Positions 23,024 to 48,943 of a stretch of DNA of 64,000 nt are shown here, piece by piece. The notes under the pieces were generated by a model that saw only the letters and a program-made list of their open reading frames with translations, was not told the DNA's origin and ran no database searches. The number at the start of each line of letters is the position of its first letter. Position 1 is the stretch's first letter. A program made the position numbers and the translations under genes. Source of the stretch: Streptomyces sp. NBC_00461 (lineage in GTDB: Bacteria > Actinomycetota > Actinomycetes > Streptomycetales > Streptomycetaceae); assembly GCF_036013935.1 (NCBI RefSeq), contig NZ_CP107902.1:3691001-3755000 (forward strand), given 5' to 3'.

Positions 23024-23170
23024 GAGGTCTGCTACAGCATGAACTGTGCTGTCGAACAGATCAGATGGTGTTTGCGGCGTCCGCTAGCACTTCCAATCGT
23101 TCAGCATGCTCAGCACAGGCCGAGTTATAGCCATCCCGCTGGGTTCGTAAGAAGAACGTCAGACGGTCCC
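23024..23170 (-). repeat. 147-bp direct repeat, copy 1 (recombinase-end core F)
   Basis: Matches 27546-27692 over its full 147 bp without a gap; I count 14 differences (about 90% identical). Its left end, read on the minus strand, gives 'STVHAVADLGEGES' and stop, similar to the serine recombinase C-terminus at 47.3 kb (VADLIEAEISSGG). The right part codes on the minus strand for the end of a small protein ('RDGYNSACAEHAERLE'); this frame is open from about 23204. The rest of 22884-23390 holds no other supported gene. Confidence 0.8.
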
Positions 23171-23390
23171 AAATCGAGCTTGGGATGGCGAGGATGTAGC
23201 CCACCGATGTGTCGTGGGCGCCTACTGACGCACGCCCACCCGTTCAGTTCATAACTAACGGGGTTCTTCCGGCACGAACAAGTTGCGCAATATGTCAGCC
23301 TTGACGCCAAGGCATGCCCACGCCGATGGCGAAGCTCACCCCTCCAGGCTATTAGACTCCTTGCAGTCCAACTGGAAAGAGGAAATTTCT

Positions 23391-23723
23391 ATGGTTCAGC
23401 GCACCGTAACCATCTTCACCGACGATCTGACGGACACCGAGGGTGAGGACATCGCAACCCACACTTTCAGTCTCGATGGCGTCAGCTACGACATCGACCT
23501 CAACCCTGACAGTTACCAGCAGCTGTTGGATGCCTTGGGACCCTTTGTGAAGGTCGGTCGCAAGAGCGGCGGCACCTCTCGTCGGGGTGGAGGCGGCAGG
23601 AAGGCTGCTGGAGGACCGGACCCCGTCAAGGTGCGTGAGTGGGCTCAGGGGCAGGGCATCGAGGTCAGCGCCCGCGGCCGTGTGCCGCGGACTGTCATTG
23701 AGCAGTACGAAGCAGCACATTGA
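23391..23723 (+). CDS. lsr2: Lsr2-family nucleoid protein
   Basis: 110 residues, the usual Lsr2 length, from ATG 23391 (GAGG 8 bases upstream). N-terminal dimerisation domain with 'TDDLTDTEGEDIATHTFSL' and 'YDIDLNPDSYQQLLDAL'; Gly/Arg-rich linker near residues 60-80; C-terminal DNA-binding part with 'VREWAQGQGIEVSARGRVP', where the RGR is the AT-hook-like minor-groove motif. Lsr2 binds and silences AT-rich acquired DNA in actinobacteria. A copy inside this accessory region could silence neighbouring cassettes or counter the host's own Lsr2. Confidence 0.92.
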   Translation: MVQRTVTIFTDDLTDTEGEDIATHTFSLDGVSYDIDLNPDSYQQLLDALGPFVKVGRKSGGTSRRGGGGRKAAGGPDPVKVREWAQGQGIEVSARGRVPRTVIEQYEAAH

Positions 23724-23933
23724 GCATGGGGCACTCGCTCGGCCTGGCTCGGGCGACTTTGGTGAACGCCGACGGTTTCCTCAGCGCGAAATGGGCTTTC
23801 GAGAAGCGTTGAACGGGTGGACCCCTCTGTCGGCAACGTGTCAACCAAGCGACAGAGGGTGCCCGTCACCCTTGCATCTGGGTCTGGGCCTTGGAACGCC
23901 GAGACTCCGGAACTGCTGATCGCCGCGCGAGTT

Positions 23934-24137
23934 TCAGTCCTCCGAGGGGATGCGTGCGGCAATCTCTCGAGCCCACCGAGCGGCATCTGGCGATTCGGGG
24001 CCGCCTTCCTGCGCGACGGCGAGCAGCAGCCGGCGCAGATCGCGCGCTTCGTTCAAGGTGAGCAACGCGAGTCGGTCCGTCATGGGCTCCATGTCGAAGT
24101 CGATCTCATCCAGGTCGAGGTGGCCGTAGTCGTCCAT
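23934..24137 (-). CDS. Small acidic protein, unknown
   Basis: 67 residues, very acidic N-terminus ('YGHLDLDEIDFDME') then a helix ('LNEARDLRRLLLAVAQ') and 'AARWAREIAARIP'. Similar short acidic proteins are common on Streptomyces plasmids. No family recognised. Confidence 0.5.
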   Translation of the reverse strand: MDDYGHLDLDEIDFDMEPMTDRLALLTLNEARDLRRLLLAVAQEGGPESPDAARWAREIAARIPSED

Positions 24138-24259
24138 GCCTGGCCAACGGCATCAGACACAAGCGGGTCACGGAACCAGACCAGAGGCAGGTCACGCCCG
24201 GCTACGGAGTGCGCCACCCAATCCGGCTCTGGCTCCGGTAGGGACCTGCCGGACAGTCC

Positions 24260-24751
24260 CTAATGCGGTCCCGGCGGCTCCGGGGACAAGCCGGGGACCA
24301 CCGTGAACGTCGCGTCCTTCCGGCCTAGGTCGCTGTCCACCTCTTCGACGAAGAGGTGGAAGTCCCTGTGCCGCAGGAACCGGTTGGGGAAATTGAAGGA
24401 CCGGAACGACACCGCGTTTGGGTTCGCGAGTCCCGGGACCATGGCGAACGTGGCGTCCTTCCGCATCAGCTGCATGTCCGGGGACTCGGGCGGGGGTGCC
24501 GACCCGGGGGGAACGAGCGGGGGGTTCGGGCCTTCGTGGAGTTTGACGCGGAAGTCCTGGTGCCGCAGGAAGTGGAGAGGGAAGTTGACGGACCGGAAGG
24601 ACACGAGGTTGTGGTCCGCCAGGCCGTTCACCATGTCGAAGGTGGCGTCGGCGCGGTCCAGGTCGCTCGCAATGGCCGACAGCTCGCCCAGGAAGTTCGC
24701 GTGCCGGACGAAGTGATTGTCGATGTTGAAGGACTTGAGCGAGGAACCCAT
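24260..24751 (-). CDS. AbfB/CBM42-like beta-trefoil protein
   Basis: 163 residues from ATG 24751, with AAGGGAG 9 bases upstream. Three repeats of the AbfB pattern: 'SLKSFNIDNHFVRHANF', 'SFRSVNFPLHFLRHQDF' and 'SFRSFNFPNRFLRHRDF', each followed by 'DATF..V.GL'. This is the arabinose-binding module of fungal and bacterial arabinofuranosidases (CBM42), a beta-trefoil that binds arabinan side chains. There is no signal peptide and no catalytic domain, so a stand-alone intracellular or atypically exported lectin-like protein is suggested. Confidence 0.8.
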   Translation of the reverse strand: MGSSLKSFNIDNHFVRHANFLGELSAIASDLDRADATFDMVNGLADHNLVSFRSVNFPLHFLRHQDFRVKLHEGPNPPLVPPGSAPPPESPDMQLMRKDATFAMVPGLANPNAVSFRSFNFPNRFLRHRDFHLFVEEVDSDLGRKDATFTVVPGLSPEPPGPH

Positions 24752-24920
24752 GGTGTGCACTCCCTTGCGGCCGTCGGAGGGAATCGCTTATCAGGGCAAC
24801 GCCCTGAGGAAAGCGTCTCTCCGTCCGGTCGGTCCCACCAACCCGGATCGTCCTTTTCCTGCGAATGGTGGCGGTGAGAGTGCCTCTCTGCGGGTGCGGG
24901 CGTAGTATGCGGTCGCCCTG

Positions 24921-24998
24921 GACCCGCAGAAGCGCTACACGGTGCAGAAGCAGCCAGCTGCGGGCTCCTGCCACTATCGCTACGAGAAGGGGGAGCCA
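24921..24998 (+). pseudogene. Fragment of the nuclease-like lipoprotein gene
   Basis: Reads 'DPQKRYTVQKQPAAGSCHYR' and matches the lipoprotein at 26207 around 'GPQKHYTVQQQPAAGSCHYR'. The similarity stops near 25000, where a 32-bp dispersed repeat begins. A broken second copy of the 26.2-kb gene. Confidence 0.65.
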
Positions 24999-25004
24999 CT
25001 GGCG

Positions 25005-25036
25005 TTCGAAATATTGGCCCACATCGCCAGGAATTC
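25005..25036. repeat. Dispersed 31/32-bp repeat, copy 1
   Basis: The 32 bp beginning TTCGAAATATTGGCCCACAT correspond to 42312-42342 with one indel and two mismatches. It abuts the end of a gene fragment here and an ISAs1-type transposase remnant there, so it may be an insertion-sequence end. Confidence 0.55.
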
Positions 25037-25097
25037 AGGACGCCCATCTGCCCGGTGGGGTGCCGATATTAACCTGGGCTGAATGTGACCCGCACGG

Positions 25098-25214
25098 TCG
25101 AATCAGTAGCTGCGGAACGTCGATCTGCTCGTTGAGGAAGTCCGGGTTGTAGCCCTGCAGGGGCTGTACCTCTTCGGGAGACGGCTGCTGCAGCCAGACC
25201 TTCCACGTGACCTT
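25098..25214 (-). pseudogene. Gene fragment, unknown
   Basis: A minus-strand frame bounded by stops reads 'KVTWKVWLQQPSPEEVQPLQ' then 'YNPDFLNEQIDVPQLL'. The composition is protein-like but no start is present and I cannot name the parent gene. Confidence 0.35.
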
Positions 25215-25237
25215 CTATGCTCGGCGCAGACGCTGCA

Positions 25238-25729
25238 TCAGCCGTCAGCCGCCGCCTGGGCAGCCATCGCAGGCGTACCGGTTGCCAGCGTGTTCGCCAG
25301 TGCCGGATCGGGATCCTTGGTGGCAGCGCCGACGGCTGCAGTCCTAAGAAATCGCTTGTCGACTTCACTGGTAATGATTCGGGCACCTCCGACACCGGCC
25401 AGGAGCGCACCCATTAGCGCAGTAACTGTCAACGAAGCAGTGACCTCTCCTGATGGGCGCGTGCCGATTAGTACCGCATCCTTGAGGGGTCCGTAGAGAC
25501 CCCAGGTTACAAGGGCCGCGAAAGCACCGAGGACCACGTTACCAAACACGCCGGGGCGGAGAATTCCTCTCTCCATCTTCGGCACAATGAAGCCGTTATC
25601 GGTGATCAGTGCGTTGATGATGCCACCCACAGCACCGGCGCCGACGACAGCGCCGAGGATACGCCAAACTTCGGGTGAGGTATTTCCCTGTGTAGCGGCC
25701 GCAAGCAGATCCGCAGTCTGAGTGGTCAT
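25238..25729 (-). CDS. Small polytopic membrane protein
   Basis: 163 residues, ATG 25729 with GGAAGGGG 5 bases upstream. Three hydrophobic segments: 'ILGAVVGAGAVGGIINALI', 'GVFGNVVLGAFAALVTWGL' and 'ASLTVTALMGALLAGVGGA', followed by a soluble Ala-rich tail. Glycine-rich helices and small size recall holin-like or channel-like proteins, but nothing identifies it. Single gene between two gene fragments. Confidence 0.65.
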   Translation of the reverse strand: MTTQTADLLAAATQGNTSPEVWRILGAVVGAGAVGGIINALITDNGFIVPKMERGILRPGVFGNVVLGAFAALVTWGLYGPLKDAVLIGTRPSGEVTASLTVTALMGALLAGVGGARIITSEVDKRFLRTAAVGAATKDPDPALANTLATGTPAMAAQAAADG

Positions 25730-25957
25730 CTCGCCCCTTCCAAAGGATGGTCATGGTTTAGCATCGGCTCGACCGTGCCCAAATGATTGACGTACCGCAT
25801 GACGGAAATGCATTCATGTGGCAAGAATTCGACACACTAGGCGGACGGATTCTTCGGCTGGTTGAGCTGCAAACAGAATACTCCGCGCATTGCCACCAGC
25901 TTTGGATATCTCATCATCAGCGTGCCGCTGCGTGCGACTGGTTAGGTTGGCCACAAC

Positions 25958-26112
25958 AACAAGGCGCGGCGCGTCCTCTACCGGCCAGGACGCCGAGGTG
26001 GTTGTGAGAGACCTGGTTGTCGTCGAACCGACCCGGCTGAACGACTTCCTCGCCCAGTTCGCCGTTGGGGCCCTGGAGTACGTGCCAGTTGCTCAGTAGC
26101 GCAGGCTGCACA
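25958..26112 (-). pseudogene. Chymotrypsin-family protease fragment
   Basis: The minus strand reads 'ALLSNWHVLQGPNGELGEEV' and 'VQPGRFDDNQVSHNHLG', which matches the region around the catalytic His of secreted S1-type proteases ('LSNxHVLxG ... GDxxxQPGxxD'). No Ser or Asp part is present. A decayed gene piece. Confidence 0.5.
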
Positions 26113-26206
26113 CGGGCGTGCCTCTTTGCGCGGTACCCCGCTCGGTAGGACTGGGCGGTCATGGGGGAGCATCTGCTCAATCATCGCCTGCCCGTGAAGG
26201 ATCGTC

Positions 26207-26878
26207 ATGCGTTCTGCCCGCCGTGCCGTACCGCCCGTCCTGCTCGCCTGCCTGCTGCTGGCGGGCTGTTCGTCCGTCAAGCTCGGCACGTCGACGTCGT
26301 CCGCAAACCAAAGCCCGGCAGAAGGAGCTTCGGGATCGGCCGCGCAGGCTGGGGCAGGGAAGCCGATCGCGGTGGGGGCGGGCCCGCAGAAGCACTACAC
26401 GGTCCAGCAGCAGCCGGCCGCCGGCTCGTGCCACTACCGCTATGAGCACGGCGAGCCGCTGGAGGATCCGAAGTGCACTCCGGGTGCGATCTCCCCGGCG
26501 GTGACGCAGGCGAACCTGAAGTCGACGATCTGCCGCAAGGGCGGCTACACCTCCGGCGTACGCCCCTCTGCGTACGTGACGGGCAAGGAGAAGAAGCTGA
26601 ACGCCGCATCCTACGGCTACACCGGCCGCATGGGCGATGCTGAAATGGACCACTTGATCAGCCTGCAGCTGGGAGGCGACCCCAACGACGCGCGCAACCT
26701 GTGGGTAGAGCCTGCCGACCCAGGCCACAAGAAGGGCGCCGGGGTGAACAACAAGAAGGACCCGGTGGAGACCAAGTTGCACACCGCGGTCTGCGCCGGC
26801 CAGGTATCGCTCTCCGCCGCGCAGAAGGCGATCGTCGCCGACTGGACCACAGCATTGACCGTTCTTCACCTCGGCTGA
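26207..26878 (+). CDS. Exported HNH-like nuclease lipoprotein
   Basis: 223 residues from ATG 26207 (GAAGGA upstream). Signal peptide and lipobox LLAGC (Cys near residue 21), then a polar linker to about residue 60. The folded part has 'EMDHLISLQLGGDPNDARNL' followed by 'WVEPADPG' and a late 'KDPVETKLHTAVCAGQVSLS'; DH followed by N/H-type residues is the HNH/beta-beta-alpha-metal layout found in a widespread family of small secreted endonuclease-like proteins. Four Cys outside the lipobox may form disulfides. It could digest external DNA or act as a toxin between cells. A fragment of a second copy lies at 24921. Confidence 0.7.
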   Translation: MRSARRAVPPVLLACLLLAGCSSVKLGTSTSSANQSPAEGASGSAAQAGAGKPIAVGAGPQKHYTVQQQPAAGSCHYRYEHGEPLEDPKCTPGAISPAVTQANLKSTICRKGGYTSGVRPSAYVTGKEKKLNAASYGYTGRMGDAEMDHLISLQLGGDPNDARNLWVEPADPGHKKGAGVNNKKDPVETKLHTAVCAGQVSLSAAQKAIVADWTTALTVLHLG

Positions 26879-27150
26879 AGAGGCCCCGGCGCCACCGCAC
26901 CAGTTGCGTCACACAGCTGTGGCACCTGTCCGGGACGGTGATGTGGGTGCCAGGCCTCGTCGGCAGTCTAGTTGTTAGCCATGGGAACTCCAAAGGAAGG
27001 AAAGGGGGGTTGGGGTGAGAGAGAGCCGGGGACTATGAGCCCTCCCCAGCAGAGGTGAGTCATTTGCATCTACGCCAACCGGGGTGAAGACTGGACGTAG
27101 AGCGCCCGATCAAGTAGGACGCGCCGTCTCGAACCAGAAGGGAGACGGCA

Positions 27151-27411
27151 ATGACGAACTACAATGATCCAAAGTCCATAGAAGAGATGGCCCAGAAGAA
27201 TCGGGAATTGGCCGATCGCCAGCAGGAAGCACTCGACGCTAAACGTCGGCGAGGAGAAAAGCCATCCGAGGGAGAAGAAAGGGGCATCAGGCGACTTCGG
27301 GAGCAAGCGGCGAGAGATGAAGAGGTAGCGCAGAGAATGCGCTACGGCCCTTCCGCGACGCATGAAAACCAAAGTTCCTTGCATCACCAGGCCGAGAGGT
27401 ATCGCTTTTGA
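27151..27411 (+). CDS. Small charged coiled-coil protein
   Basis: 86 residues; ATG 27151 has GGGAG 8 bases upstream. Almost entirely charged helix ('AQKNRELADRQQEALDAKRR', 'RRLREQAARDEEVAQRMRYG'). No domain recognised. Lies just left of the second 147-bp repeat. Confidence 0.55.
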   Translation: MTNYNDPKSIEEMAQKNRELADRQQEALDAKRRRGEKPSEGEERGIRRLREQAARDEEVAQRMRYGPSATHENQSSLHHQAERYRF

Positions 27412-27474
27412 CAGGCGAGGGCCCGGCTCGGCTGAACCCTCCCGGCAGGGACAGGAAATGTTGCCGCCGTACCA

Positions 27475-27593
27475 GCTGAAAGAGACACGGCTGCGTGGGG
27501 ATCGAGTCTCTGGACACCACCTCCGGCCGAGAGCTCGGCCTCAATGAGGTCTGCTACAGCCTGAACTGTGCTGCCGAACAGATCAGATCGCAT
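27475..27593 (-). pseudogene. Serine recombinase 3'-end remnant (core E)
   Basis: Minus strand reads 'RSDLFGSTVQAVADLIEAEL' then 'SAGGGVQRL', matching the last ~25 residues of the intact recombinase (TVNVVADLIEAEISSGG then SIPRL). No recombinase body lies upstream; instead the right side is the 'RDGYNSACAEHAERLE' coding piece shared with the copy at 23 kb. Confidence 0.7.
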
Positions 27594-27692
27594 TTGCCGC
27601 GCCCACTAGCAATTCCAATCGCTCAGCATGCTCAGCACAGGCCGAGTTATAGCCATCCCGCTGGGTTCGTAAGACAGACGTCGGACGGTCCC
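27546..27692 (-). repeat. 147-bp direct repeat, copy 2
   Basis: Partner of 23024-23170 (14 differences, no gaps by my count). The right-hand two-thirds code on the minus strand for 'RTQRDGYNSACAEHAERLEL' followed by a short end and stop, and are identical in frame in both copies. Confidence 0.8.
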
Positions 27693-27832
27693 TGAGGAAT
27701 GCAACACTCACAAGACCCGTTTCCGTTGATCGGCGGGGATCTCTGCCCGCACTGTCCACGGCGCGGCCGGCCTTGCTTTGCACCTCGCCAACGGCGGCCG
27801 TCGCAAGCGTCAAGACCGTGTGAGGCGAGTAG

Positions 27833-30800
27833 TCACACACGGAACAACCTATCGGTGTGATCGACGAACGTGGCGAGGCAGAGCTGCGCCGACTCAGGGC
27901 TGATCAGAGTGGCCGCCAGCAGAAGGTCCGCAGTGATACCGCAGGCCAACCCTTTACCCAAGAGGCCGGGAGTACGCTCCGGAGCGGCTGTGGCGGCGAG
28001 ACGGGCCAATGTGCCGAGAGCACGGGCACGCATCTCGGTCGGTAGCTGTTGCGCCGCGCGCTCTGCGGTGGTCCACAGTCCCGCCTGCGCTGCTGTCACG
28101 AGCAAGTCGTACGTCTGTTGTTGCTCGCCTTCCCATCTCCACCAGGCCGCAGCCCCGTACCCCGAGGGATTAGGCGGTGGCGGTACGCGCTCGACCAGCA
28201 CAATCGCGCTGTCCGCGTCGACCTTGGCGACGGTCTCCACCAGGTGGCGAAACACCAGGGACAGGTCGTGGACGTGGGCCCACACCGGGCCGTCCTCCAG
28301 CAGCCCCAGATCCCTGGCCGGTTGCACGTTCCCCAGTTCGGCATGTAGCTGGGCGCAGGTGATCAGACCCTCGCCCTGGAGCCGCGGATCACGCTCGCAT
28401 CGCACATGCGCGTCATAGGTGTCCAGCAGCGTGCGTGCTCTGTCCGTCTTCCCCGCTTCATGGTGGGTGCGGATCACCGAAGGGAGAAGTGCGCGCCAGG
28501 TTTCGCGGTGGCCGCGCAGAGCAAGGGCTTCGGCACCCGAGATCAGCTTGTCGTAGCGGACCGAGTCGCCCAGCAACAGCGCTGTGGACGCCAGATGGCA
28601 CAGGATGCGGCCGGCACCGTCGGGGTAGACGACCCAGTCGCAGATACGTTCCGCGCGGTCGATCCCGTCGATGGCACCGGAGACGATGCGTGCCTGTGCG
28701 CAGTGTCGTGCATAGACGGACCAAGCCCATACCCGGGACTCCGGCAGCATGAGGCTGTCGGCGAGCAAGCGTGCACTCTCGTCGAGACCGGCATCGACAC
28801 AGCCGGCCACCGCGGCGACGATGGCAGTCTCCACATGCGAGGCGAGATCCCGCTCCTCGCCTTCGCAGTAGGCCAGGTAGGTCTGCAGAAGCTCGAAACC
28901 CGCATCCTCCATGCCGGAGCCGAAGGCTGTGTCCAGCGCGCTGGCCACCACGTGTGCGGTCGTCAGCCTGTCCGGATGGGCGCTGGCCAGGAGATTGACT
29001 CCCTCCGCCCAGAGATCGGGGTCGTCGGCCCAGATCTCGGAGATCCTTTGCTGGCAGTGAGCGGACAGGACATCGTGTTTCACCTGACCAAGGAAGTGGC
29101 GCGCCAATTCCGTCTCCTTGGCGTCTGCCGCCCCCAGGGCTGCGGCAGACCTCCTCAGTACGCTCGCCTCGTGATCGAAGCCGTCATCGTTCCCTTGTGT
29201 GATGGTATGTCTGGCCGTGCTGCCGAACTGGTTGGTGCGGATCATGAGGCTGACAAGGTCGGCGAATGCATCCATCGCCTTTTGGTCGTCGCTCCAGCAG
29301 TAGGAGGGATCGTGCTCGTGCACGCTCTCAGCGCACCGACGCTGCGCCGCCTCCAGGACGTCGGCCACCTTGGGGTGCTCCGGATGTTCATGCACGAAGA
29401 CCAGAGCGATCTCCGCGAGAGCCTCACGTTGGGCCTGTCCACCGATGTTGGTGACTCCGAGAACGCTGTACAGGTTGAGTGCCTCGATCAGGCCGAGGAG
29501 TGCGTCAACGTCACCTCGCTCCGCTGCCGCTCTGGTGAGCTGCCACAACTCCATACGGGCGGTGTCCTGTCCGGGTCGGCGCCGCCGCTCCCAGGCCGGC
29601 CTGTCTGCACGCCCATGTGCCAGGAACAAGAATTGCGTATGTAGGTCTTTGGACCACGTCGCTTCTGGAGGCATGGGCGCCGGATCCATCTGCGGGATCG
29701 CGAAACTGCCGTCCTGGAGTGCACCTAGAACCGACGACGCGGCACCCGCGCTGAGGACTCGATGCGCTGTTGCCGCCAAAAGCGCACGCAGATCAGTCGT
29801 GTCCTCCTCGCGGCAGTTCTTCAGCATTTCTATTGCCGTGTCCAGGAGGCGTCGGGCATGAGCGCGTTCCGCGCGCTGGTGTGTCAGGAGGCAGAGGTAG
29901 GTCATGAGCCGTACGCGGTGATCCGGCTCTTCCAGATGAAGCGCGATGCGCTCCGCTCGGGCCAGGTGCCCGGCCTCTGCCCACGCCCGCCCCAGGTCCG
30001 CAGGTAGGCCAGTCACCGGGCGTCGTAGTTCCTCCAGGTCCAGCGCCCGACTGGTCATCCGCAGCACGGGGGGATGGGGCGAGGCGGCCAGAGCGGACAG
30101 ATAACGCTCGTTGTCCTCCAACAGCCGTACATGCGAACCTGTGCGCTGGTGCAGCAGGGCTGCCCACCGCTCGGACTCCAGTAGCTTTCCCCACGTGTCG
30201 AGTTTGCCGGAGAGTTTCAGATAGTCCGGGTACAGCTCGGTGACCCAGCGGGGTGTTGCATCGGGCCAAGCATCCGCCCACGTGCGGACCGCCGTCTCTA
30301 TCGCACCGTCGAGAACCGTCCGCCGCTTCTTGTCCATGTCCTTCAGGAATGCCTCGCGCAACGTGTCGTGGGCGAAGGCGAACACCGTCGCGCCGCAACG
30401 ATCGCTGGCGTGCACCAGACGCCGGATCGGCGGGGACGTGAGCACTCGCGTGACTTCACGCTTCGTCAGGTCGCAGTCCATGAAACCGCTCAGCGTGTGG
30501 AGGTCATCCGTATCCAACGGTCCTAGCACGGCTATCTGTCCGAGAAGTACATGAGCGGGAGTGGTGTCGCTTTGACTCAGGATATCTGCCATGTCATGGC
30601 TAGCTTGCTGCTCGGCTGTGCGGGCGTGATCCGTGGGAGACAGGACGACTTGCGCCGCTCTCAAATGCGGCGGAGCGAAGTCCACGCCTTCGTCCCGTGG
30701 TTCGGCGAACGGGAACGACTCCAGCGGTGTCCGGCTGAAGAGCAGTACGTGTGTGCCTTTCTGATGTCCGCCGGGAAGTGACGCCAGCAACGCATCGGCG

Positions 30801-31999: not shown

Positions 32000-32041
32000 C
32001 TACTCACCCTCCGCAGGACAGGGACCACCGGCCAGAAGGCG

Positions 32042-32344: not shown

Positions 32345-32701
32345 AGTTCCCCCTCCGCCTCTGCCAGGCCCCCAAGATGTCTTTCACTGCTCGCTACGGA
32401 CATACGCCAAACCTCGCACGAACGTAAATACGCCGTGACTCAGCCGAGCCAAGCGTCCGGCGAGCCGTGCACCACAGCCTCTCAGAGCCAGTCCCGATCA
32501 TCTGTCAGCGCTCCCGAACCAACCAGCCGCAACAGCTGTTGCTTCTGGGGCAAAAGGGCTGTTGGATCAGGTCCCCGGCGTGATCGACTCCGCTGGGCGA
32601 GCGCGTGGCGCCAGGCGGCCGCAACTGCCTTTGGAAACAATCATCCAGCTCAACACCCAGATGAGGTTGCCCCAGCCGAACGTCGGTCGGACTATGGCCT
32701 C
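32345..32701. other. Divergent promoter region
   Basis: About 355 bp between the Trypco2 gene and the HEPN-like gene. It must carry promoters for both; I do not see a clear sigma70 consensus. Confidence 0.4.
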
Positions 32702-33379: not shown

Positions 33380-33423
33380 CCCGGGCATCTGCAAGGGGAG
33401 GCCACAAGAAATTTCGCTCACGA

Positions 33424-41379: not shown

Positions 41380-41646
41380 ACCAAGAAGAGACGGCGGAGA
41401 AGGCTAAAGAGTTGCGTACAAAGGTCGGGGCGAGCCAGCGAAGCGCGGGCTTCAGCTGCTACCCACCTCAGCCGCCTCGCTCGGCCATTCCAGCACGCCG
41501 CGACCCGGTGGATTCGGGATCAACCACCTTCCTCACTGGGTAACCGTAGTAGCTCACCCATTTGCCTTTCATGAGTGGCATAACTGGTCTCCGATCATCA
41601 ATCTTGAGAAGCATGCCTCAGTGACTCCAAGCGATAGGTGCTGCCA

Positions 41647-41844
41647 ATGAACGAGGAACAGGCCATTGAGGCCGCCAAGCAGATCGGCTTGAATATCGGC
41701 GAGCATGTGATTATCCAGAACGATGGACAGATCACGCATCCGCATACCAGCGACTCTAGCGACTTTCGTCATGTAGACGGCTGGAGAGTCGAGCGTACTG
41801 GCGAGGACGAGTACGAGGCAGAAAAGGTCCACGGGCCAGCCTAA
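41647..41844 (+). CDS. Small unknown protein
   Basis: 65 residues from ATG 41647 (ATAGGTG 6 bases upstream; an in-frame ATG lies 9 bp earlier). 'EEQAIEAAKQIGLNIGEHVI' followed by a polar stretch and 'WRVERTGEDEYEAEKVHG'. Lower GC than the neighbours. No family known. Confidence 0.55.
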   Translation: MNEEQAIEAAKQIGLNIGEHVIIQNDGQITHPHTSDSSDFRHVDGWRVERTGEDEYEAEKVHGPA

Positions 41845-41907
41845 GAAGGCTTACGCTGGACGCATTACAACCCGCTCTATATGATCTGATCATGAAAGGC
41901 GGGCTGT

Positions 41908-42198
41908 ATGGCCAAACTGAATCTCGCAGATGCGCACTATAACGATGAAGCCAACTTCCTAGATGGCCTCCTCGCTTTCCATCCTGAGTTGTTCAAACAT
42001 CTCAGTCCAGAATCACGCCAAGCCCTAAATGACTACTATTCGCTTGATCGAGAGCTGAAGGTTGATTTTCGTCGCTACCGCCAGGAAGCTATCACACGGG
42101 ACGCCACCCTGGAAGCAACTGCCAAGCTAGCTTTCTCCGAAGTGCTTCGGTTAGCCGAGATCGACAGCTTCATATACACAACACCCGCCGAAGACTAG
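41908..42198 (+). CDS. Small helical unknown protein
   Basis: 96 residues. Helical with 'FLDGLLAFHPELFKHLSPES' and 'ALNDYYSLDRELKVDFRRYR'. Lower GC than neighbours; follows the 65-residue gene by 63 bp and is followed by a terminator, so the two are probably one transcript. No function known. Confidence 0.6.
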   Translation: MAKLNLADAHYNDEANFLDGLLAFHPELFKHLSPESRQALNDYYSLDRELKVDFRRYRQEAITRDATLEATAKLAFSEVLRLAEIDSFIYTTPAED

Positions 42199-42214
42199 CT
42201 GACGCCAAAAGCAA

Positions 42215-42263
42215 TCGGCCGACCCCTCTTCCAGACGGGGAATACTGGAAGGGATCAGCCGAG
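42215..42263 (+). terminator. Bulged hairpin terminator
   Basis: TCGGC, CCC and TTCCAG segments pair with CTGGAA, GGG and GCCGA, starting 17 bp after the stop of the 96-residue gene. Confidence 0.6.
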
Positions 42264-42311
42264 CTAGGTCCAGAGTGCGGCGTTAGCTATTGACGCCAGT
42301 CATGAACAATG

Positions 42312-42342
42312 TTCGAATATTGGCCCACATGGCCAGGACTTC
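42312..42342. repeat. Dispersed 31/32-bp repeat, copy 2
   Basis: Counterpart of 25005-25036 (see there). It lies 30 bp beyond the stop of an ISAs1-type transposase remnant, a position consistent with the terminal repeat of that element. Confidence 0.55.
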
Positions 42343-42371
42343 GGCGTACTCGCATGACACCCGGTTCGTGA

Positions 42372-42610
42372 TCATCCGAGGCCGAGGAGTGCGAGGGGGC
42401 GGCGAGGGTCGCGGGCGTTGCGGCGGAGGCCGGCTGCCGTGTTCTTCAATGCGGCCATGCGGAGGGCTCCGATAGCGAGGTTGCGCCAGGTGGCCATCGC
42501 GCGGGGCGTGTTGCCGGTCCGCAGCTGAGAGGCGTCCAGGATCGTTCGGGCGCCTTGATGCGCATGCGCGAGGCAGAGAAACCACCTGAACGGCCCACGT
42601 TCCCGGTCGG
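42372..42610 (-). pseudogene. ISAs1-type transposase C-terminal remnant
   Basis: Reads '[20 protein letters not shown]' then '[20 protein letters not shown]', the conserved C-terminus of ISAs1-family transposases (RTGN..., RNLAI..L, RHHARDP..PL). No N-terminal part or start present. Confidence 0.7.
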
Positions 42611-42667
42611 CGTGCGAGATGACCCATTCGGCCGCACGTTTAACTCCACTGCCGGTACGCGACAGGT

Positions 42668-42835
42668 GTGATCACGCTCCGTCCGGGAGGCATCGTGATC
42701 CTCATAGCTCTTCTTGTCCCGATGGCGCTGCTTCTGGTGATGGTCGCACTCGACGCGTTCGAAGACCATCTGTTCCCTCCACGCCAACCTCCGCCGCTGG
42801 AGAACACCATTCCCGAGCAGTCAGAACTCGACTGA
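42668..42835 (+). CDS. Small single-pass membrane protein
   Basis: 55 residues from GTG 42668. One membrane segment ('[20 protein letters not shown]') then '[11 protein letters not shown]' and a Pro/Glu-rich tail. Streptomyces genomes have many such short N-terminal-anchor proteins of unknown role. It lies 29 bp before the AccE-like gene and is probably co-transcribed with it. Confidence 0.6.
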
Positions 42836-42864
42836 GCAGTCCATCGAAGACGGGAGAAAGAACC

Positions 42865-43068
42865 ATGAGCACTCCTTGCGGAAACCTGCTCCGCGTCGAG
42901 AAGGGTCATGCCGAGGCCGAGGAGCTGGCCGCCATCGTCGCGGTCCTGATGGCCCGTGCTGCCACCCTGCCCTCAGCCGCCCCGACCCGCCGCGGCCGCT
43001 CCAGGGCCGGCTGGTGTCGTCTTGAGCGCACCCCGGGCTTCCGCGCCCCGCACAGCTGGCAGGACTGA
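42865..43068 (+). CDS. Acyl-CoA carboxylase epsilon-subunit-like protein
   Basis: 67 residues; GGGAG 8 bases before ATG 42865. 'LLRVEKGHAEAEELAAIVAV' matches the AccE/PccE pattern (Rv..G.p..eElAAlvAVL), followed by an Arg/Pro stretch and a C-terminal Trp ('SWQD'). In actinobacteria this small subunit joins the beta subunit of acyl-CoA carboxylase and raises activity. No beta subunit is near, so this may be a stray or specialised copy. Confidence 0.75.
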   Translation: MSTPCGNLLRVEKGHAEAEELAAIVAVLMARAATLPSAAPTRRGRSRAGWCRLERTPGFRAPHSWQD

Positions 43069-43517
43069 CCAAGGCGCTCGATCACGCGCCCGGGTGAGGT
43101 CCGTCTCGGTCGGCGTCGGAGTCCGGCTCCGGTTCCGGTTCTTCGCCTGGCTCGGGCCACCGCCCGAAGGGGCCGATGGGCTGCTCAGGGTGACACCGAG
43201 CACGCCGGGTCCCTTTGTACGGTGCGGTGGCATCGGGATCACGAGTCCTCACCTTCATGTCGGGCCTGCGCCAGCAGCGCTGTCACGACGTCGTTCGCTT
43301 GGTCCGCGGTCTGCTCATCAACCGGGGTCAGGAACCTGGAACCCCCGGCGGCTCGGAGCGGGCGGCACGAGCCCGCTCCGGCCGAGAGGACAGCCCGCGT
43401 GAGCTCCGCAACTGCGGATGGCGCGGGCCGACATGCCACGCCTGGCGTAATGAGTCGCTCCGGCTGCTTGACCAGGTCACGTTGTGCGCAGGCAGTATCC
43501 GGAGAGGGGGCAGGAAG

Positions 43518-44759
43518 GTGGTGGCGTACCGGGCCATGGACGAGGAGAGCGTGGACCGGTCGGAGGGTTTCGGGGAGCGGCTGCTCGGTGTGCTGCTGGA
43601 CAGAGCGCGGGTGTTGCCGCCGCAGCTGATCGCCCCGCTCATCGCGGAGGAGGTGGCCAGGATCGGCGGCCGTGACGTGTCCATCCTGCTCCAGGACTAT
43701 GCGCAGGAGCTGCTGGTGCCGCTGCCGGGCAGGAAGCTGCACGTGGGCCAGCCCGAGCCAGTGGTCGACTCGCCCGCTGGCCGGGCCTTCCAGCGAGCGG
43801 AGGCCGTCGAGGTGCCACAGGCCGGCGGCGTGCGAATGTATCTGCCCCTGCTGGACGGAAGCGATCAGGTAGGCGTCATCGCCCTGACGCTGGACACGGT
43901 CGGCGACGATGACCGGCGCCTGCTACGCCGGTTCGCCGGACTGGTCGCCGACATGTTGGTCACCAAGAACGCCTACACCGATCAGTTCTTTCTGGCCCGG
44001 CGTCGGGAGCCGATGAGCGTGTCCGCGGAGATCCAGTGGGGCCTGCTGCCGCCGCTGACGATGACCGTGCCGCAGGTCGAGGTGGCAGGCATCCTGGAGC
44101 CCGCCTACCGCGTCGCCGGTGACAGCTTCGACTACGCCCTCAACGACAACATCCTGCACATGGCCGTGATCGATGCGATGGGCCACGACCTGGATGCCGC
44201 CGCGATGGCGACCATCGCCATCGGCGCCTACCGCCATGCCCGGCGCGTGTTCGTCAGCCTGGCCGAGAAGTACGCGTTCATGGACAGTGCCATCTCCCGG
44301 CAGTTCGGCGCCGACCACTTCGTCACAGCGCAGCTGATGCACCTGAACATCGCTACCGGTGAGATGGAGCTGGTCAACGCGGGCCACCCGGCGCCCCTGC
44401 TGATCCGCGACGGCCAGGTCGTGCGGCAGTTGGAGACCGCGACGACGCTGCCCGTCGGCTTCGGAGGTGAGACGCCCCGCGTCAGAGAGCACACGCTCCA
44501 GCGGGGCGACCGGGTGCTGTGCTACACCGACGGCATCATCGAGGAGCGCGTCGACGGCGGGGAGCCGTTCGGTGAGGATCGCCTCATCCGCTGCGTCAAC
44601 CGCCTGGGGCAGGAGCCGTCAGAGGGGATGCGGGCGGACCTGCGCCGGCTCTCCCACACGCTGAAGAAACAACGGGGCGGGCGCACTAGCGACGACGCCA
44701 CCCTCTTCATGATCGAGTGGCACGGAGGCGCCGCCGACCATCTCGTAGTCCTTGACTGA
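43518..44759 (+). CDS. GAF-like/PP2C (SpoIIE-type) phosphatase
   Basis: 413 residues from GTG 43518 (GGAGAGG about 11 bases before); the frame is open to 43215, so a longer form is possible. The N-terminal ~170 residues look like a GAF sensor ('VRMYLPLLDGSDQVGVIALT'). The SpoIIE phosphatase domain has 'YRVAGDSFDYAL', 'HMAVIDAMGHDLDAA' (metal Asp/Gly-His), 'NAGHPAPLLIRDG', 'GDRVLCYTDGI' and 'SDDATLFMIEW'. Such enzymes dephosphorylate anti-anti-sigma factors in partner-switching stress control. No kinase or STAS gene is adjacent. The preceding 43069-43517 has no other supported gene. Confidence 0.88.
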   Translation: MVAYRAMDEESVDRSEGFGERLLGVLLDRARVLPPQLIAPLIAEEVARIGGRDVSILLQDYAQELLVPLPGRKLHVGQPEPVVDSPAGRAFQRAEAVEVPQAGGVRMYLPLLDGSDQVGVIALTLDTVGDDDRRLLRRFAGLVADMLVTKNAYTDQFFLARRREPMSVSAEIQWGLLPPLTMTVPQVEVAGILEPAYRVAGDSFDYALNDNILHMAVIDAMGHDLDAAAMATIAIGAYRHARRVFVSLAEKYAFMDSAISRQFGADHFVTAQLMHLNIATGEMELVNAGHPAPLLIRDGQVVRQLETATTLPVGFGGETPRVREHTLQRGDRVLCYTDGIIEERVDGGEPFGEDRLIRCVNRLGQEPSEGMRADLRRLSHTLKKQRGGRTSDDATLFMIEWHGGAADHLVVLD

Positions 44760-45065
44760 ACACCTGGGACGTCGACCGGGACGCTTGAGTGGACGTCCAG
44801 GAGCAGACAGAACGCAAGTCGATCTCGCTTTTCGAGCGGGCCGTTCCGATCCAGTTCGATGAGCTAATTTTCGCCGTGGCCTCCGTCTGAATTGCGAGGA
44901 ATGGTGGCCGGAAGGAAACTGAAAGGTGGGCAAGGCCCTGTCCGGCGGTATGGATCTGAAGCGCGAACGGATTCACAACCATGCCCTCTCCGGGGGATCC
45001 GCTCGGATGTCGCGCGCCCTCATCCGTCCGTGAGTGTCCCCGTTCTTCCCACAGGGGTGTCAGCC
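44760..45065. other. Intergenic stretch
   Basis: About 305 bp between the phosphatase and the oxidase on the same strand. No gene seen. Confidence 0.4.
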
Positions 45066-46490
45066 ATGGGCGGTTTCAATGCATCGATTCTTGACGGGCT
45101 TCGCGAGGCGCTGCGGGGTCCCGTCCTCGCTCCCCAGGATCCGGGCTACGACGAGGCCCGCAGCATCTACAACGCCATGATCGACCGACGTCCCGCCGCC
45201 ATCGCGCAGTGCGTCGACGCCGCGGACGTGAAGGCCACGATCGCCTTCGCCCAGGACACCGGGGCGGAACTCGCCGTGCGCGGCGGCGGCCACAGCGGGC
45301 CGGGCCTGTGCCTGGTGGACGGCGGACTCGTGCTCGACCTGTCGCCCATGCGTTGGGTGCGCGTGGACCCGGCGACGAGCAGCGCACAGGTGGGCGGCGG
45401 CAGCCAGCTGGGGGACGTGGACCACGCGACCCACGCCTTCGGCCTCGGCATGCCGGCCGGAATCATGTCGACCACCGGCGTCGGAGGTCTGACACTGGGT
45501 GGCGGCCACGGCCACCTGACCCGCAAGTACGGGCTCACCATCGACAACCTGCTGGCCGCCGACGTGGTCCTGGCCGACGGGAGGTTCATCACCACGTCGG
45601 AGAAGGACTACCCGGACCTGTTCTGGGCGCTGCGGGGCGGTGGTGGGAACTTCGGTGTGGTCACGTCCTTTACGTACCGGCTGCACCCTGTGCATACGGT
45701 CGGGGTCGCGGTGACGGTGTGGCCGATCGACCGGACGGCGGAGGTGCTGCGGTGGTACCGGGAGTTCCTGCCTGGCGCGGACGAGGACCTCAACGGCTTC
45801 TTCGCGGTGCTGGTCGTGCCGCCCGGGCCGCCGTTCCCGGAGCCGATCCACGGGCAGAAGATGTGCGCCGTGGTGTGGTGCTACACCGGCGACCTGGACG
45901 CCAACCGCCTCGAAGAGGTACTGGCCGTCGTCAACGAACCGGCTCCGCCCGCCTTCCACTTCGCCACCCCCATGCCGTACCCCGCCCTGCAGACCATGTT
46001 CGACGAACTGATCCCCAAGGGGCTGCAGTGGTACTGGCGCGGCGACTTCTTCGACGCCATCTCCGACGAGGCGATCGAGGTGTTCCAGCAGTACGGCGAG
46101 AACATCCCCACCGACCTGTCGACGATGCACCTGTACCCGGTGGACGGGGCCGCCCACCGGGTGAGTGCCGACGACACCGCCTGGGCCTACCGCGACGCCG
46201 TCTGGTCCGGCGTGATCGGCGGAATCGACCCCGACCCCGCGAACGCCGATCTGATCCGGCAGTGGTGCGTCGACTTCTGGAACGACCTCCACCCGCACTC
46301 CATGGGCGGCTCCTACATCAACTTCCTGGGCGAGCAGGAAGGCCCTGAGCGGGTGCGGACCACCTACCGCGGGCACTACGACCAACTCTCCTCGATCAAG
46401 AGCACCTACGACCCGGACAACTTCTTCCGCGCCAACCAGAACATCCCGCCATCAGCCGGGCAACGCGGCGCAGCGTCACAGACGGCCTGA
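45066..46490 (+). CDS. Berberine-bridge-type FAD-linked oxidase
   Basis: 474 residues from ATG 45066. FAD-binding PCMH domain with 'RGGGHSGPGL' (His that links FAD 8-alpha), 'GGLTLGGGHGHLTRKYGLT' and 'LFWALRGGGGNFGVVTSFTY'. The C-terminal BBE motif is 'YRGHYDQLSSIKSTYDPDNF' with 'RANQNIPP'. These enzymes oxidise sugars, phenols or pathway intermediates using oxygen. The usual second FAD-linking Cys (6-S-cysteinyl) would be near 'WCYTGD', where a Cys is present. Upstream open frame to 44892 looks non-coding. Unlinked in function to its neighbours as far as visible. Confidence 0.88.
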   Translation: MGGFNASILDGLREALRGPVLAPQDPGYDEARSIYNAMIDRRPAAIAQCVDAADVKATIAFAQDTGAELAVRGGGHSGPGLCLVDGGLVLDLSPMRWVRVDPATSSAQVGGGSQLGDVDHATHAFGLGMPAGIMSTTGVGGLTLGGGHGHLTRKYGLTIDNLLAADVVLADGRFITTSEKDYPDLFWALRGGGGNFGVVTSFTYRLHPVHTVGVAVTVWPIDRTAEVLRWYREFLPGADEDLNGFFAVLVVPPGPPFPEPIHGQKMCAVVWCYTGDLDANRLEEVLAVVNEPAPPAFHFATPMPYPALQTMFDELIPKGLQWYWRGDFFDAISDEAIEVFQQYGENIPTDLSTMHLYPVDGAAHRVSADDTAWAYRDAVWSGVIGGIDPDPANADLIRQWCVDFWNDLHPHSMGGSYINFLGEQEGPERVRTTYRGHYDQLSSIKSTYDPDNFFRANQNIPPSAGQRGAASQTA

Positions 46491-46765
46491 TGACCGACCC
46501 GCCAGCTCACGAACTGCTTCGGTGTGAGTTAGACAGCCCGTGCGGGGGACGTCGGCTGGCTCATATTTCCGATGTAGTGGCCCGCGTTCTATCTGTTGAC
46601 TGTTGTAGTCAAAAGTAGTCCGAATAGATCGGACCAGTCCCAGCGTGCATCAGTCCCAGGCCAGTCATTACTGGTCAGCAGCTAGCCCACACAGACATGT
46701 TTTACGCTCAACCTTGCATTCGATTCGGAGTTGCGCAATAGTTAACACACTAAGCGGAGATTCCC

Positions 46766-47050
46766 ATGAAAGAGTTCGATGACGCCGCCCTGCAAGAGCT
46801 GGACGAGCAACTTCCCGAATGGATAGGCGACGTGATAGCCGCCCGAGAAGCCGGAACCGGGATACAGATAGATGTCTGGGGTTTCGGTGAGCCCGATCTT
46901 CTCTATAGCGCGCTGATGCTTGCCGCCAGTGCGGGAGTCCCAGTATCGACTGCACCAAGCCAGGAATGGTTAAATAAGCGCTACGACATATCGAATTTGG
47001 AGATGCGCGACCAAATTCGCCTGGACAGGGAACTATGGTCCTCTAACTAG
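46766..47050 (+). CDS. Small unknown protein
   Basis: 94 residues; GGAG 9 bases before ATG 46766. 'LDEQLPEWIGDVIAAREAGT' and 'LLYSALMLAASAGVPVS' suggest a compact alpha/beta fold. Lower GC than its neighbours. Convergent with recombinase-end copy B, 15 bp away. Role unknown. Confidence 0.6.
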   Translation: MKEFDDAALQELDEQLPEWIGDVIAAREAGTGIQIDVWGFGEPDLLYSALMLAASAGVPVSTAPSQEWLNKRYDISNLEMRDQIRLDRELWSSN

Positions 47051-47065
47051 AAGCAGAAAACGCTC

Positions 47066-47185
47066 CTAGCCGTCTTTCAGGCTGCCGCGCAGTGCATCAA
47101 GTCGAGCTTGCAATTCTGTGGGCAACTCTACCTCCGCATGGACTGTCCGGCCGCTCTTGACTTCTTCTCCAATAAGGTCTTTCAT
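47066..47185 (-). pseudogene. Recombinase-end-like remnant or 39-residue protein (core B)
   Basis: From ATG 47185 it reads 'MKDLIGEEVKSGRTVHAEVE' then 'LPTELQARLDALRGSLKDG'. Near copy of core A (38.8 kb). GAGG lies 10 bases before the ATG, so a small real gene is conceivable. Only 63 bp separate it from the end of the intact recombinase gene. Confidence 0.6.
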
Positions 47186-47248
47186 AGTGTTTAGCCTCGT
47201 GCGCCACAGCATACGCTCAAGCGCCAGGCAGGTCTCTCGCATCTATTT

Positions 47249-48943
47249 CTAAGTGACATTGCCAAAATCGGGATGATCATCCTCTATGAGCCGAGGAATG
47301 GAGCCGCCCGAAGAAATCTCCGCCTCGATAAGGTCTGCCACAACGTTGACTGTGGTCCACCAATTTGGAATCATCAACGCCAAAGAGCCAGGTCTTTGCT
47401 CTGTAGAGCCTTTTTCAGAGGTTCTAGCCTGAAGATATATAGCTTCCTCGGGTGAGTAGCCTTCCCGGATCTTGTGGTACCACTTTTTAGCTTGCAGAAC
47501 CACTTTTCTGTCATGCAGCAAGAGGTTCGAGCCAAGGGTGAGCAGCATACGCCTTTTCACGGCTGGGGTCGCACGACGGAACGTATCGTCAAGTTGAGTA
47601 AGATCTTCGAACAGCCCCATGGCGGCCTTAAGAACTTGACCTCGAACGGCAATATCCCCAGTCTCCATACGCTTCTGTAAGCTTTCCATCGAAGTCTGGT
47701 ACTCATCCTTTCGAGCCATGAACTCCTCAGAGGTAATCTCCCCGTCGGCTCTCATGTCAATAAGTCGCTGTATTCTGCCTCTCATCCTCTCTAGCTCCCG
47801 CCGTTGTGAAGCCTTGACAGCTTCAACCTCGCCCACCTTCCCAACATAGCGATCCTCTAGAATTTCGAGGGCTACGTCACGAAACTCAGGTATGAGCCGG
47901 TATTTTTCGACCTCTTCCTCAAAGGAGGAAACGAGACCCGCGTTAGTGACGGCGGGTTCATGACATTCAGTAGACCTCTTCTTGTGAGTACAGTGGTAGT
48001 ACAGATACAGGGCATCTCGATTCGTCCCGCTGTAGTGCTTCCACTTCTCAGTGACAACAACCGCACCGCCACAAGTAAGACAACGTAAGAGGCCCGTATA
48101 GTTGACGTAGCTGCGTTTCGTGTAACGGCGGTATTTTCCTTGGCTGTGCCTCGCCATGATGTCCAGCAAGCGCCTGTGCTCATCGAGAGTGATGACAGCA
48201 GGATACGTACCCTTGTTGTGGTAAATTCGGCCGTTCCACTTGAAATATCCTGTGTAAAAGATACTCCTGAGCATATCGCTGACCTGGTTGTAGCTCAGTG
48301 GTCGGCCCTTGCGTCCAGTGAAGCCCCAACTGTTGATGGTTCGCCGAATCTCGGCAACTGTATAGTCGCCGGTTAACGCGAGCCTCAGAGCACGCTCCAC
48401 TAGAGGCAGCCGTTTCTTATCGGCATAGACGAACCTCTCTCCCTTGTTGACTGCTGGTCCTGAATTGAGGTATCCGGGAGGCGCTTGGGCCGGAAAATGC
48501 CCTAGCTCAGCTTTGTCCGCCATACCTTGTTTACAAATCTGCTGAAGTTTGCCAGATTCATACTGAGAGTGGGACATGAGGCCCTGCAGTGCCATCAGCC
48601 CCTCGATGGAGTTTTCAAAGTTGTAGGCGGTGAACTTAAGGTTTGCCAACTCTCCGGTCCGCAACATGTAACTAATGGTCGCAGCGTCGATTTCGTTTCG
48701 AGAGAGACGATTTGGGTGCCAGGCTACGATGCCATCGGCTTCACCCGCCTTAATGCGGGCAATCATGTCCTCAAAGATCGGCCGGACGTAAGGTTTGAAC
48801 GCACTCTTACTCTCTGCGGGAAGAAAAGTAATGTCCAGATCGGGAAACGAATCCTGGATGCGCCTAATCTGCCCCGGAAGGGATAGGATCTGCCGCTCCT
48901 TGGACTCGGTGGACTTGCGAACATAGGCAAAATATTTTGGCAC
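47249..48943 (-). CDS. Large serine recombinase
   Basis: 564 residues. N-terminal resolvase domain with nucleophile Ser11 in 'YVRKSTESKERQ' and 'VAWHPNRLSRNEID'. A recombinase domain follows (about 150-270), then a zinc ribbon with Cys288, Cys291, Cys318 and Cys327, and a coiled coil near 375-430 ('ASQRRELERMRGRIQRLIDM'), as in serine integrases. It ends 'WWTTVNVVADLIEAEISSGG' plus 20 residues. Base composition is clearly more AT-rich than typical Streptomyces, so it is foreign. It is the only complete recombinase in the window and its 3' end resembles the five remnants to its left. Expected to cut and join short att sites without a tRNA target. Confidence 0.93.
   Translation of the reverse strand: MPKYFAYVRKSTESKERQILSLPGQIRRIQDSFPDLDITFLPAESKSAFKPYVRPIFEDMIARIKAGEADGIVAWHPNRLSRNEIDAATISYMLRTGELANLKFTAYNFENSIEGLMALQGLMSHSQYESGKLQQICKQGMADKAELGHFPAQAPPGYLNSGPAVNKGERFVYADKKRLPLVERALRLALTGDYTVAEIRRTINSWGFTGRKGRPLSYNQVSDMLRSIFYTGYFKWNGRIYHNKGTYPAVITLDEHRRLLDIMARHSQGKYRRYTKRSYVNYTGLLRCLTCGGAVVVTEKWKHYSGTNRDALYLYYHCTHKKRSTECHEPAVTNAGLVSSFEEEVEKYRLIPEFRDVALEILEDRYVGKVGEVEAVKASQRRELERMRGRIQRLIDMRADGEITSEEFMARKDEYQTSMESLQKRMETGDIAVRGQVLKAAMGLFEDLTQLDDTFRRATPAVKRRMLLTLGSNLLLHDRKVVLQAKKWYHKIREGYSPEEAIYLQARTSEKGSTEQRPGSLALMIPNWWTTVNVVADLIEAEISSGGSIPRLIEDDHPDFGNVT

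Follow-up and report, generated by a model that had tools for sequence, protein, structure and literature searches.

Six same-orientation sites resembling a serine recombinase gene end divide a possibly nested array of recombinase-less blocks in a Streptomyces tRNA-Lys island

Introduction

Integrons have a resident tyrosine recombinase gene beside a first recombination site, followed by cassettes that lack a recombinase and whose sites all lie in one orientation. Here we describe a locus of Streptomyces sp. NBC_00461 in which a large serine recombinase (LSR) gene occupies a comparable position. The window, by which we mean the whole stretch of 64,000 nucleotides that was analysed, covers positions 3,691,001 to 3,755,000 of the forward strand of contig NZ_CP107902.1 (assembly GCF_036013935.1), and it contains six same-orientation copies of a short site that resembles the end of the LSR gene and that separates blocks of unrelated content. 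The locus is like an integron in its resident recombinase beside the first site, its recombinase-less blocks and its single site orientation. It differs in that the array's recombinase is of the serine type, and not the tyrosine recombinase IntI, in that the multi-gene blocks measure 4.5-8.3 kb, and in that the recombinase gene points into the array.

Other described systems share further properties with this locus. Accretion of integrative and conjugative elements (ICEs) and integrative and mobilizable elements (IMEs), together with cis-mobilizable elements (CIMEs) that have kept their attachment (att) sites and lost their integrase, is known (excerpts of PMC5704250 and PMC7563491); here, in contrast, an LSR is the enzyme, the 3′ coding end of its own gene takes the place of a housekeeping gene as left anchor, and one site type is nested within the other. 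According to excerpts of PMC5357655, streptococcal IMEs accreted at one site all have tyrosine integrases, some decayed ones encode serine integrases, the site of IME_Spy2096_SNF2 lies inside a serine-integrase gene, and that of IME_SsuT15_SNF2 adjoins the 3′ end of such a gene. Our locus is like IME_Spy2096_SNF2 in having a putative attachment site inside a serine-integrase gene, although the target of the streptococcal SNF2 elements is the snf2 gene, whereas in our case copies of the site delimit blocks that lack a recombinase and lie downstream of the recombinase gene. Staphylococcal and enterococcal cassette chromosomes (SCC and ECC) are LSR-driven islands with att sites of about 50 bp, a conserved central motif and variable cargo, and one closed enterococcal chromosome has two attR sites downstream of its ccr genes and no attL upstream (excerpts of PMC6222049). 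These elements use a CcrAB pair and the 3′ end of rlmH as target, whereas we find one LSR, a site in that LSR's own 3′ end, and an enclosing tRNA-Lys island; rlmH was not searched for. Finally, a Streptomyces island that excises in modules has been described (excerpts of PMC4057263). Accretion, CIMEs, att sites in serine-integrase genes and LSR cassette chromosomes are all known, and it is their combination with an anchor in an LSR gene end that is new: no array in which an LSR gene's own end is the anchor was found in a literature search of open-licence titles and the openings of abstracts.

Six sites share AGACCT

A first-pass annotation of the window had reported six same-orientation copies of a serine recombinase gene end, and all six are present on the minus strand. 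The core position of each site is the first base of AGACCT on that strand, and the two site types are explained below.

47301..47362, minus strand: site c47.3, type 1; core AGACCT at 47336-47331; its left arm is the recombinase end
47145..47206, minus strand: site c47.1, type 2; core 47180-47175; left arm read as that of the type-2 target
38798..38859, minus strand: site c38.8 (c38), type 2; core 38833-38828
33515..33576, minus strand: site c33.5 (c33), type 2; core 33550-33545; right arm read as that of the type-2 target
27517..27578, minus strand: site c27.5 (c27), type 1; core 27552-27547
22995..23056, minus strand: site c23.0 (c23), type 1 by its left arm; core 23030-23025; right arm either degenerate or that of the original target

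LSRs join attP and attB at a central dinucleotide. AGACCT is the sole six-base run that is invariant across the six sites. When weight matrices made from five sites were used to find the sixth, the left-out sites scored 27.8-56.1 and the best non-site scored 8.6 (164 kb, both strands). In a scan of the whole 10.37-Mb single-contig genome, with a model built from the six sites themselves and with 150 of 2163 first-look candidates scored, the six sites reached 39.5-47.4 bits and the next match 14.4, so that no comparable seventh site was found within this scope.

Protein-level searches recover most of the sites independently. The recombinase's own end recovered c27 (tblastn 2.9e-04, 34 kb searched), and in the same 34 kb the LSR homolog P0008, from Streptomyces sp. 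So13.3, recovered c33, c38 and c47.1 (1.6e-11, for c33, to 1.0e-10). A short protein profile of the tails of related LSRs gave 3.4 bits for c47.1 and 1.3 bits for c23, against a best value of 5.5 in a reversed-sequence control. Since the profile leaves these two sites no better than the control, c23 is identified by its DNA match to c27, and c47.1 by DNA and P0008. The shared protein core W-x-T-R...VADL that had been proposed for all copies stands in part: W-x-T-R occurs in c33, c38 and c47.1, but c47.1 reads KDL, and c23 and c27 read F for W. The six sites are best read as attachment sites that overlap the last codons of one LSR, and not as gene debris.

The recombinase and its clade

The gene beside the first site encodes the only recombinase of the array.

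47249..48943, minus strand: LSR of 564 amino acids (Pfam Resolvase 3.5e-12, Recombinase 1.8e-07)

The Resolvase (47.1 bits) and Recombinase (31.7 bits) matches are both above their cut-offs, and a zinc ribbon match (22.2 bits) is under its cut-off of 25.3. The serine of the N-terminal catalytic motif has a role in large serine recombinases, and R9, K10 and S11 are invariant in 11 aligned sequences. The last 37 codons of the gene, from Trp528, overlap c47.3. We searched the window in six frames with a profile of 142 LSR homologs (the best of the matches listed in two homolog searches; hereafter the clade profile). As reported in the first-pass annotation, a recombinase body is present only at the last copy (core 47336): the profile finds a sole body at 47252-48964, and its only other match has an E-value of 4.7. 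Site-model scans found no further site upstream of the recombinase, which makes the gene unlike the right-hand terminus of an element that carries the site twice.

Among 8000 candidates scored out of about 5.8 billion proteins, eight homologs fall below 1e-110. Of the 142 listed homologs, 122 retain a Trp at position 528, and the tails that follow it, when assigned to classes with loose patterns, are of an antisense-tRNA type in 107 cases, 'VRT' in 13, 'VADL' in eight, and other or cut short in 14. The 'VADL' class consists of this recombinase, four proteins from named actinobacteria and three from metagenomes. Most of the listed LSRs of the clade (P0012-P0142, and locus L012) have ends that resemble translated antisense tRNA, with DSNPR or DLNPRHPA tails. 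In a direct check at L012, the LSR frame reads through a tRNA-Gln on the other strand (ARAGORN), and RDSNPRHP, the tail word of five homologs, is the antisense of a tRNA-His of the present genome. The antisense-tRNA tails and these two checks suggest a tendency in this clade for the recombinase gene to share its 3′ end with the attachment site. The earlier proposal that the attachment site lies within the recombinase's own gene end is supported in that it fits the clade, and the integration site seems to dictate the C-termini of these LSRs.

Arm similarity follows two nested triplets

We compared the sites arm by arm, over 30 bases on each side of the core; random pairs of such arms average 8/30 matches. 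The sites c23 and c27 agree at 28/30 positions in the left arm and 14/30 in the right; c33 and c38 at 25/30 and 16/30; c38 and c47.1 at 16/30 and 27/30. The right arm of c27 is nearest to that of c47.3 (18/30). The left arms of c33 and c38 start at the conserved Trp codon, with 25/26 identical positions from TGG to the core and 0/4 just before. The comparison also makes visible the two tail types that had been noted before. Type 1 (c47.3, c27, c23) reads TTV or STV on the left and LIEAE on the right, the right arm of c23 being degenerate; type 2 (c47.1, c38, c33) reads TR[IML] on the left and [IV]GE...VELP on the right. There is no clear type-1/type-2 hybrid among the six sites, with the right arm of c23 untypable and some arm margins small. 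In the triplets formed by the two types, arm similarity changes at AGACCT, and blocks of different content share DNA flush with the same six bases. A common junction at the DNA level, which the first-pass annotation had required, is therefore present.

Two tandem insertions at one target predict that, of the three resulting sites, the second and third share their left arm and the first and second their right arm. In the type-1 triplet the corresponding identities are 24/26 (left) and 18/30 (right), and in the type-2 triplet 25/26 and 27/30; this pattern is shown by 3 of 20 ordered triplets. Among the ten ways to split six sites into two triplets, the nested one, with 47.3/27.5/23.0 outside and 47.1/38.8/33.5 inside, scores best (34.5; runner-up 21.0). 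In the outer triplet, the 3′ end of the recombinase gene itself forms the left target arm. A one-level cassette array was dropped as a model after this arm test favoured the nested split. The sites that B and C, the two blocks bounded by type-2 sites, would have had as circles, joining the c38 left arm to the c47.1 right arm in B and the c33 left arm to the c38 right arm in C, agree at 58/66 bases, and the best pair of sites in place agrees at 49.

The right arms of type 2 differ from one another mostly at third codon positions (differences at positions 1/2/3: c33-c47.1 12/4/23; c33-c38 16/7/18; c38-c47.1 10/6/12), which indicates that they evolved as coding tails. The codon pattern suggests that these arms were probably recombinase tails for a long time.

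Blocks between the sites

The six sites delimit blocks A to E, with the following contents.

47181..47335: block A, 155 bp separating c47.3 from c47.1; holds recombinase tail, stop codon and spacer
38834..47179: block B, 8.3 kb (contents by Pfam)
39442-41379, minus strand: pentapeptide-repeat protein (block B; Pfam)
43215-44759, plus strand: SpoIIE-domain phosphatase (block B; Pfam)
44892-46490, plus strand: FAD/BBE oxidase (block B; Pfam)
33551..38832: block C, 5.3 kb, NACHT pair
33795-36851, minus strand: NNH7-NACHT protein (block C; Pfam NNH7 1e-67)
36552-38477, plus strand: divergent open reading frame (ORF), partner in block C, start uncertain, without a Pfam family
27553..33549: block D, 6.0 kb, NACHT-type pair
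27833-31999, minus strand: trypsin-like/NACHT-type protein (block D; Pfam Trypsin_2 2.2e-08, NPHP3_N 2.9e-06)
31856-33379, plus strand: divergent ORF, partner in block D, start uncertain, without a Pfam family
23031..27551: block E, 4.5 kb, an AbfB-domain ORF and ORFs without a family
24260-24760, minus strand: AbfB-domain ORF (block E; Pfam AbfB 5.6e-36)

In six frames, the clade profile detects no recombinase body within any of blocks A-E, and no relaxase or integrase family was found in the ten block ORFs given to Pfam. Blocks between putative att sites that lack an LSR body, a relaxase and an integrase family by these searches correspond to what is described for CIMEs. An all-against-all blastn comparison shows that B and C match over the first 26 bp (96%) and the last 86 bp (78%), and D and E over the first 140 bp (90%), each of the three stretches being flush with the core. 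Only two other block-against-block matches occur, one of 33 bp internal to B and E and one of 23 bp, inverted, between C and D. A near-identical 27-base stretch at 25010-25036 (E) and 42316-42342 (B), 93% identical, is covered by the longest internal match. Within block B, 33-base periodic repeats at 40540-41094 (13 overlapping copies listed) encode part of the pentapeptide-repeat protein.

Pfam agrees with the earlier statement that two blocks, C and D, each encode a NACHT-type protein with a divergent partner. The NACHT match of the block D protein itself (3.9e-04) is under that family's cut-off. Both divergent ORFs overlap the start of the neighbouring NACHT gene. The two NACHT proteins have no significant mutual similarity, and the same is true of the two partners. 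The description of the blocks as defence modules holds for C and D, by their NACHT-type proteins, but the other blocks are not clearly defence-related: PADLOC matches block D to STAND_TPR (1.4e-25) and names no family for block C, and B and E contain no recognised defence family (ORFs given to Pfam; PADLOC on one ORF of B and two of E). The block C partner is matched on three plasmids. In the two Streptomyces plasmids examined (50% and 35% identity) there is no such site within 8 kb of it, so this gene also occurs outside the present cassette form. The block D partner has no match in plasmids.

About 100 bases before c33, in block C (33649-33678, minus strand), the sequence encodes SIVDDVRTI, a nine-residue word of one VRT-type LSR tail. 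A LEP-like segment precedes it, the stretch contains TTCGAA, and tblastn gives 0.024. A short profile scores it at 9.2 bits against at most 5.5 in the reversed control, and a longer profile at 4.3 against 4.5. In a control for the word search, one 20-kb stretch also gave a nine-residue match, of low complexity. This stretch is a possible remnant of another recombinase end.

How the region may have been built

We propose, with middling confidence, that two nested rounds of site-specific accretion at LSR-gene-end attachment sites built the region. The sites would be the attachment sites of a small LSR family, whose named members are all actinobacterial, and would overlap the last codons of the recombinase gene, extending from the conserved Trp codon through AGACCT to about 30 bases beyond. 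In the outer (type-1) round, the 3′ end of the resident recombinase would form the left half of the target. This target would have received an element X1 (47.3-27.5 kb, 19.8 kb with its contents) and block E (27.5-23.0 kb) as tandem insertions of single-site circles. A type-2 target within X1, itself resembling an LSR 3′ end, would have taken up B and C, also in tandem and probably by means of a P0008 relative that has since disappeared. The right arm of whichever element adjoins the recombinase would become the C-terminus of that protein. Lacking any visible recombinase, the elements could move only if one were provided in trans.

The strongest alternative, which we consider quite possible, is that complete LSR-bearing elements were stacked and later lost their recombinases, with the gene-end location of the sites being incidental. 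Accretion followed by decay to CIMEs is a described route to tandem islands (excerpts of PMC5704250 and PMC7563491), the SIVDDVRTI stretch would favour this route if it is a real LSR-tail remnant, and the left side of c47.1 keeps an 'LAL' at a recombinase-like spacing to the Trp, as judged by eye. Nevertheless, blocks A-E contain no recombinase body by the clade profile, and no copy of the site turned up on the upstream side of the surviving recombinase. Moreover, the left arms of c33 and c38 both stop at the Trp codon, an exactness that disfavours repeated independent decay. The single array suggested by the first-pass annotation, in which every new element enters at the end of its predecessor and swaps tails, would account for the same-orientation sites and the mosaic arms. 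It is improbable, however, since the nested split explains the arms best, no clear hybrid of the two types is seen, and tails in the family appear by eye to follow the recombinase bodies, so that tail swapping is not shown. Least probable of all is homologous recombination or duplication between short copies with no site-specific enzyme, because, although the copies are in parts similar enough to recombine (repeat D3, 89% over 159 bp), both triplets have their change in similarity at one and the same six bases, and B and C have just 26 bp in common at one end.

Several observations weigh against the nested accretion that we favour. At the core of the 11 sites examined, real and inferred, dyad symmetry does not exceed that of shuffled sequences (lowest p 0.18), so the flanking inverted symmetry expected earlier does not appear. 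In the recombinase family, tails seem to track bodies (P0001/P0002, P0003-P0005 and P0008/P0009 are each similar, by eye, among eight members), which argues against frequent exchange of tails. The clade profile finds no type-2 recombinase in the window. The outer triplet is the weaker one, given the 18/30 identity of the c47.3 and c27 right arms and the degenerate right arm of c23. With D and E taken as neighbours, their inferred circle sites agree at 47/66 bases, against 47-49 for the best in-place pairs. The typing of single arms involves small margins, and by peptide identity the left arm of c47.1 is equally near P0001 and P0009 (3/8 each). Searches of genome samples from the genus (392 genomes), the class (394), families (35 and 341) and the order (392) found no close relative of the recombinase; these five samples overlap, were searched with the recombinase protein or its nine-member alignment at E limits of 1e-20, 1e-70, 1e-60, 1e-50 and 1e-40, and mostly had the best three or four candidates per genome scored. 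Because no such relative was found, no block has been seen present or absent at a junction. With one locus only, mobility is something that we infer, as are the action of the recombinase on the sites, the circles, the order of events and mobilization in trans.

Further searches

Distant LSRs (24-26% identity) occur in eight of the 392 genus genomes besides the window's own, and distant LSRs occur in 22 of the 392 order genomes. The homologs P0003-P0005, of which P0003 is from Saccharothrix sp. NPDC042600 and P0005 from Actinosynnema sp. CA-248983, presumably belong to Pseudonocardiaceae; when this family was approached through RecA trees and a marker family, the first two families gave nothing, and the order sample contained no close relative. 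The recombinase has no match at 1e-30 in plasmids or phages, and its searches returned one distant LSR in genome contigs (single-sequence query) and two in viral contigs. A type-2 tail profile gave partial and weak matches (2.6e-4 to 9.7e-4) in four of 295 genus genomes beside the window's own. Site patterns returned 42, 7 and 0 stretches from viral contigs. The 42 had no tblastn match to the listed recombinases at 1e-5, and the site model, run on 33 of the 49 stretches (26 of the 42 and all seven; L061-L076 left out), gave 25 partial matches of at most 21.1 bits. By blastn of the site arms, c33 and the c27 repeat are unmatched in plasmids, and c38 is unmatched in phages.

The enclosing tRNA-Lys island

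A 68.7-kb island at a tRNA-Lys gene encloses the whole array, and the window lies inside it up to position 60369. The array is carried by an integrative element with conjugation-type genes.

60322..60369, plus strand: right end (attR) of the tRNA-Lys island, a 48-bp exact copy of the tRNA-Lys 3′ part
genome 3682712-3682759, outside the window: left copy of the 48-bp repeat
49350..55052, minus strand: island backbone (Pfam)
49350-50333, minus strand: DUF932 (island backbone)
51799-52614, minus strand: Replic_Relax (island backbone)
52764-55052, minus strand: TrwB/TraG-like coupling protein (island backbone)

A tyrosine integrase of 579 amino acids (L163:11704-13443) overlaps the tRNA-Lys(CTT) gene (genome 3682685-3682759). 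The island site is empty in all seven single-contig relatives compared: their left flank reaches the end of the tRNA-Lys, and similarity to the right flank resumes 67-254 bases further on. One of the seven has a second, partial tRNA copy at the empty site. The adjoining integrase, the direct repeat of the tRNA 3′ part and the empty relatives mark the island as an integrative element at a tRNA gene. The 49-56 kb region had been considered as the recombinase's own element, an idea that was dropped once the ends of the tRNA-Lys island emerged. The DUF932 protein was found only in the window's own genome among 75, and it has no plasmid match.

Three side observations concern the island and its right flank. 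Outside the array and inside the island, 20353-21384 (plus strand) encodes a helix-turn-helix and an IrrE-type peptidase (PADLOC RmrA 3.4e-59). About 580 bp between attR and the start of right-flank similarity (60370-60950) are perhaps the remnant of an older insertion. At 61923-62014 (plus strand), ARAGORN calls a tRNA-Arg inside a conserved gene of the opposite strand, which is probably a false positive.

Implications

More tentatively, the locus could be described as a 'serine integron', in which an LSR's own 3′ coding end captures recombinase-less circular blocks in trans, each supplying a new C-terminus. The platform would occur twice, one nested in an element captured by the other, and would travel with an integrative, conjugative-type element by which immune modules are spread. 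The 26-base left arm together with AGACCT provides a signature that can be searched for, and the antisense-tRNA-like C-termini of most listed LSRs of the clade suggest that the attachment site sets the tail of the enzyme. If this reading is true, serine recombinases have made an integron-like capture platform that takes up multi-gene modules, including NACHT immune-type ones, on an integrative element, and this would explain how unrelated modules come to adjoin in such islands.

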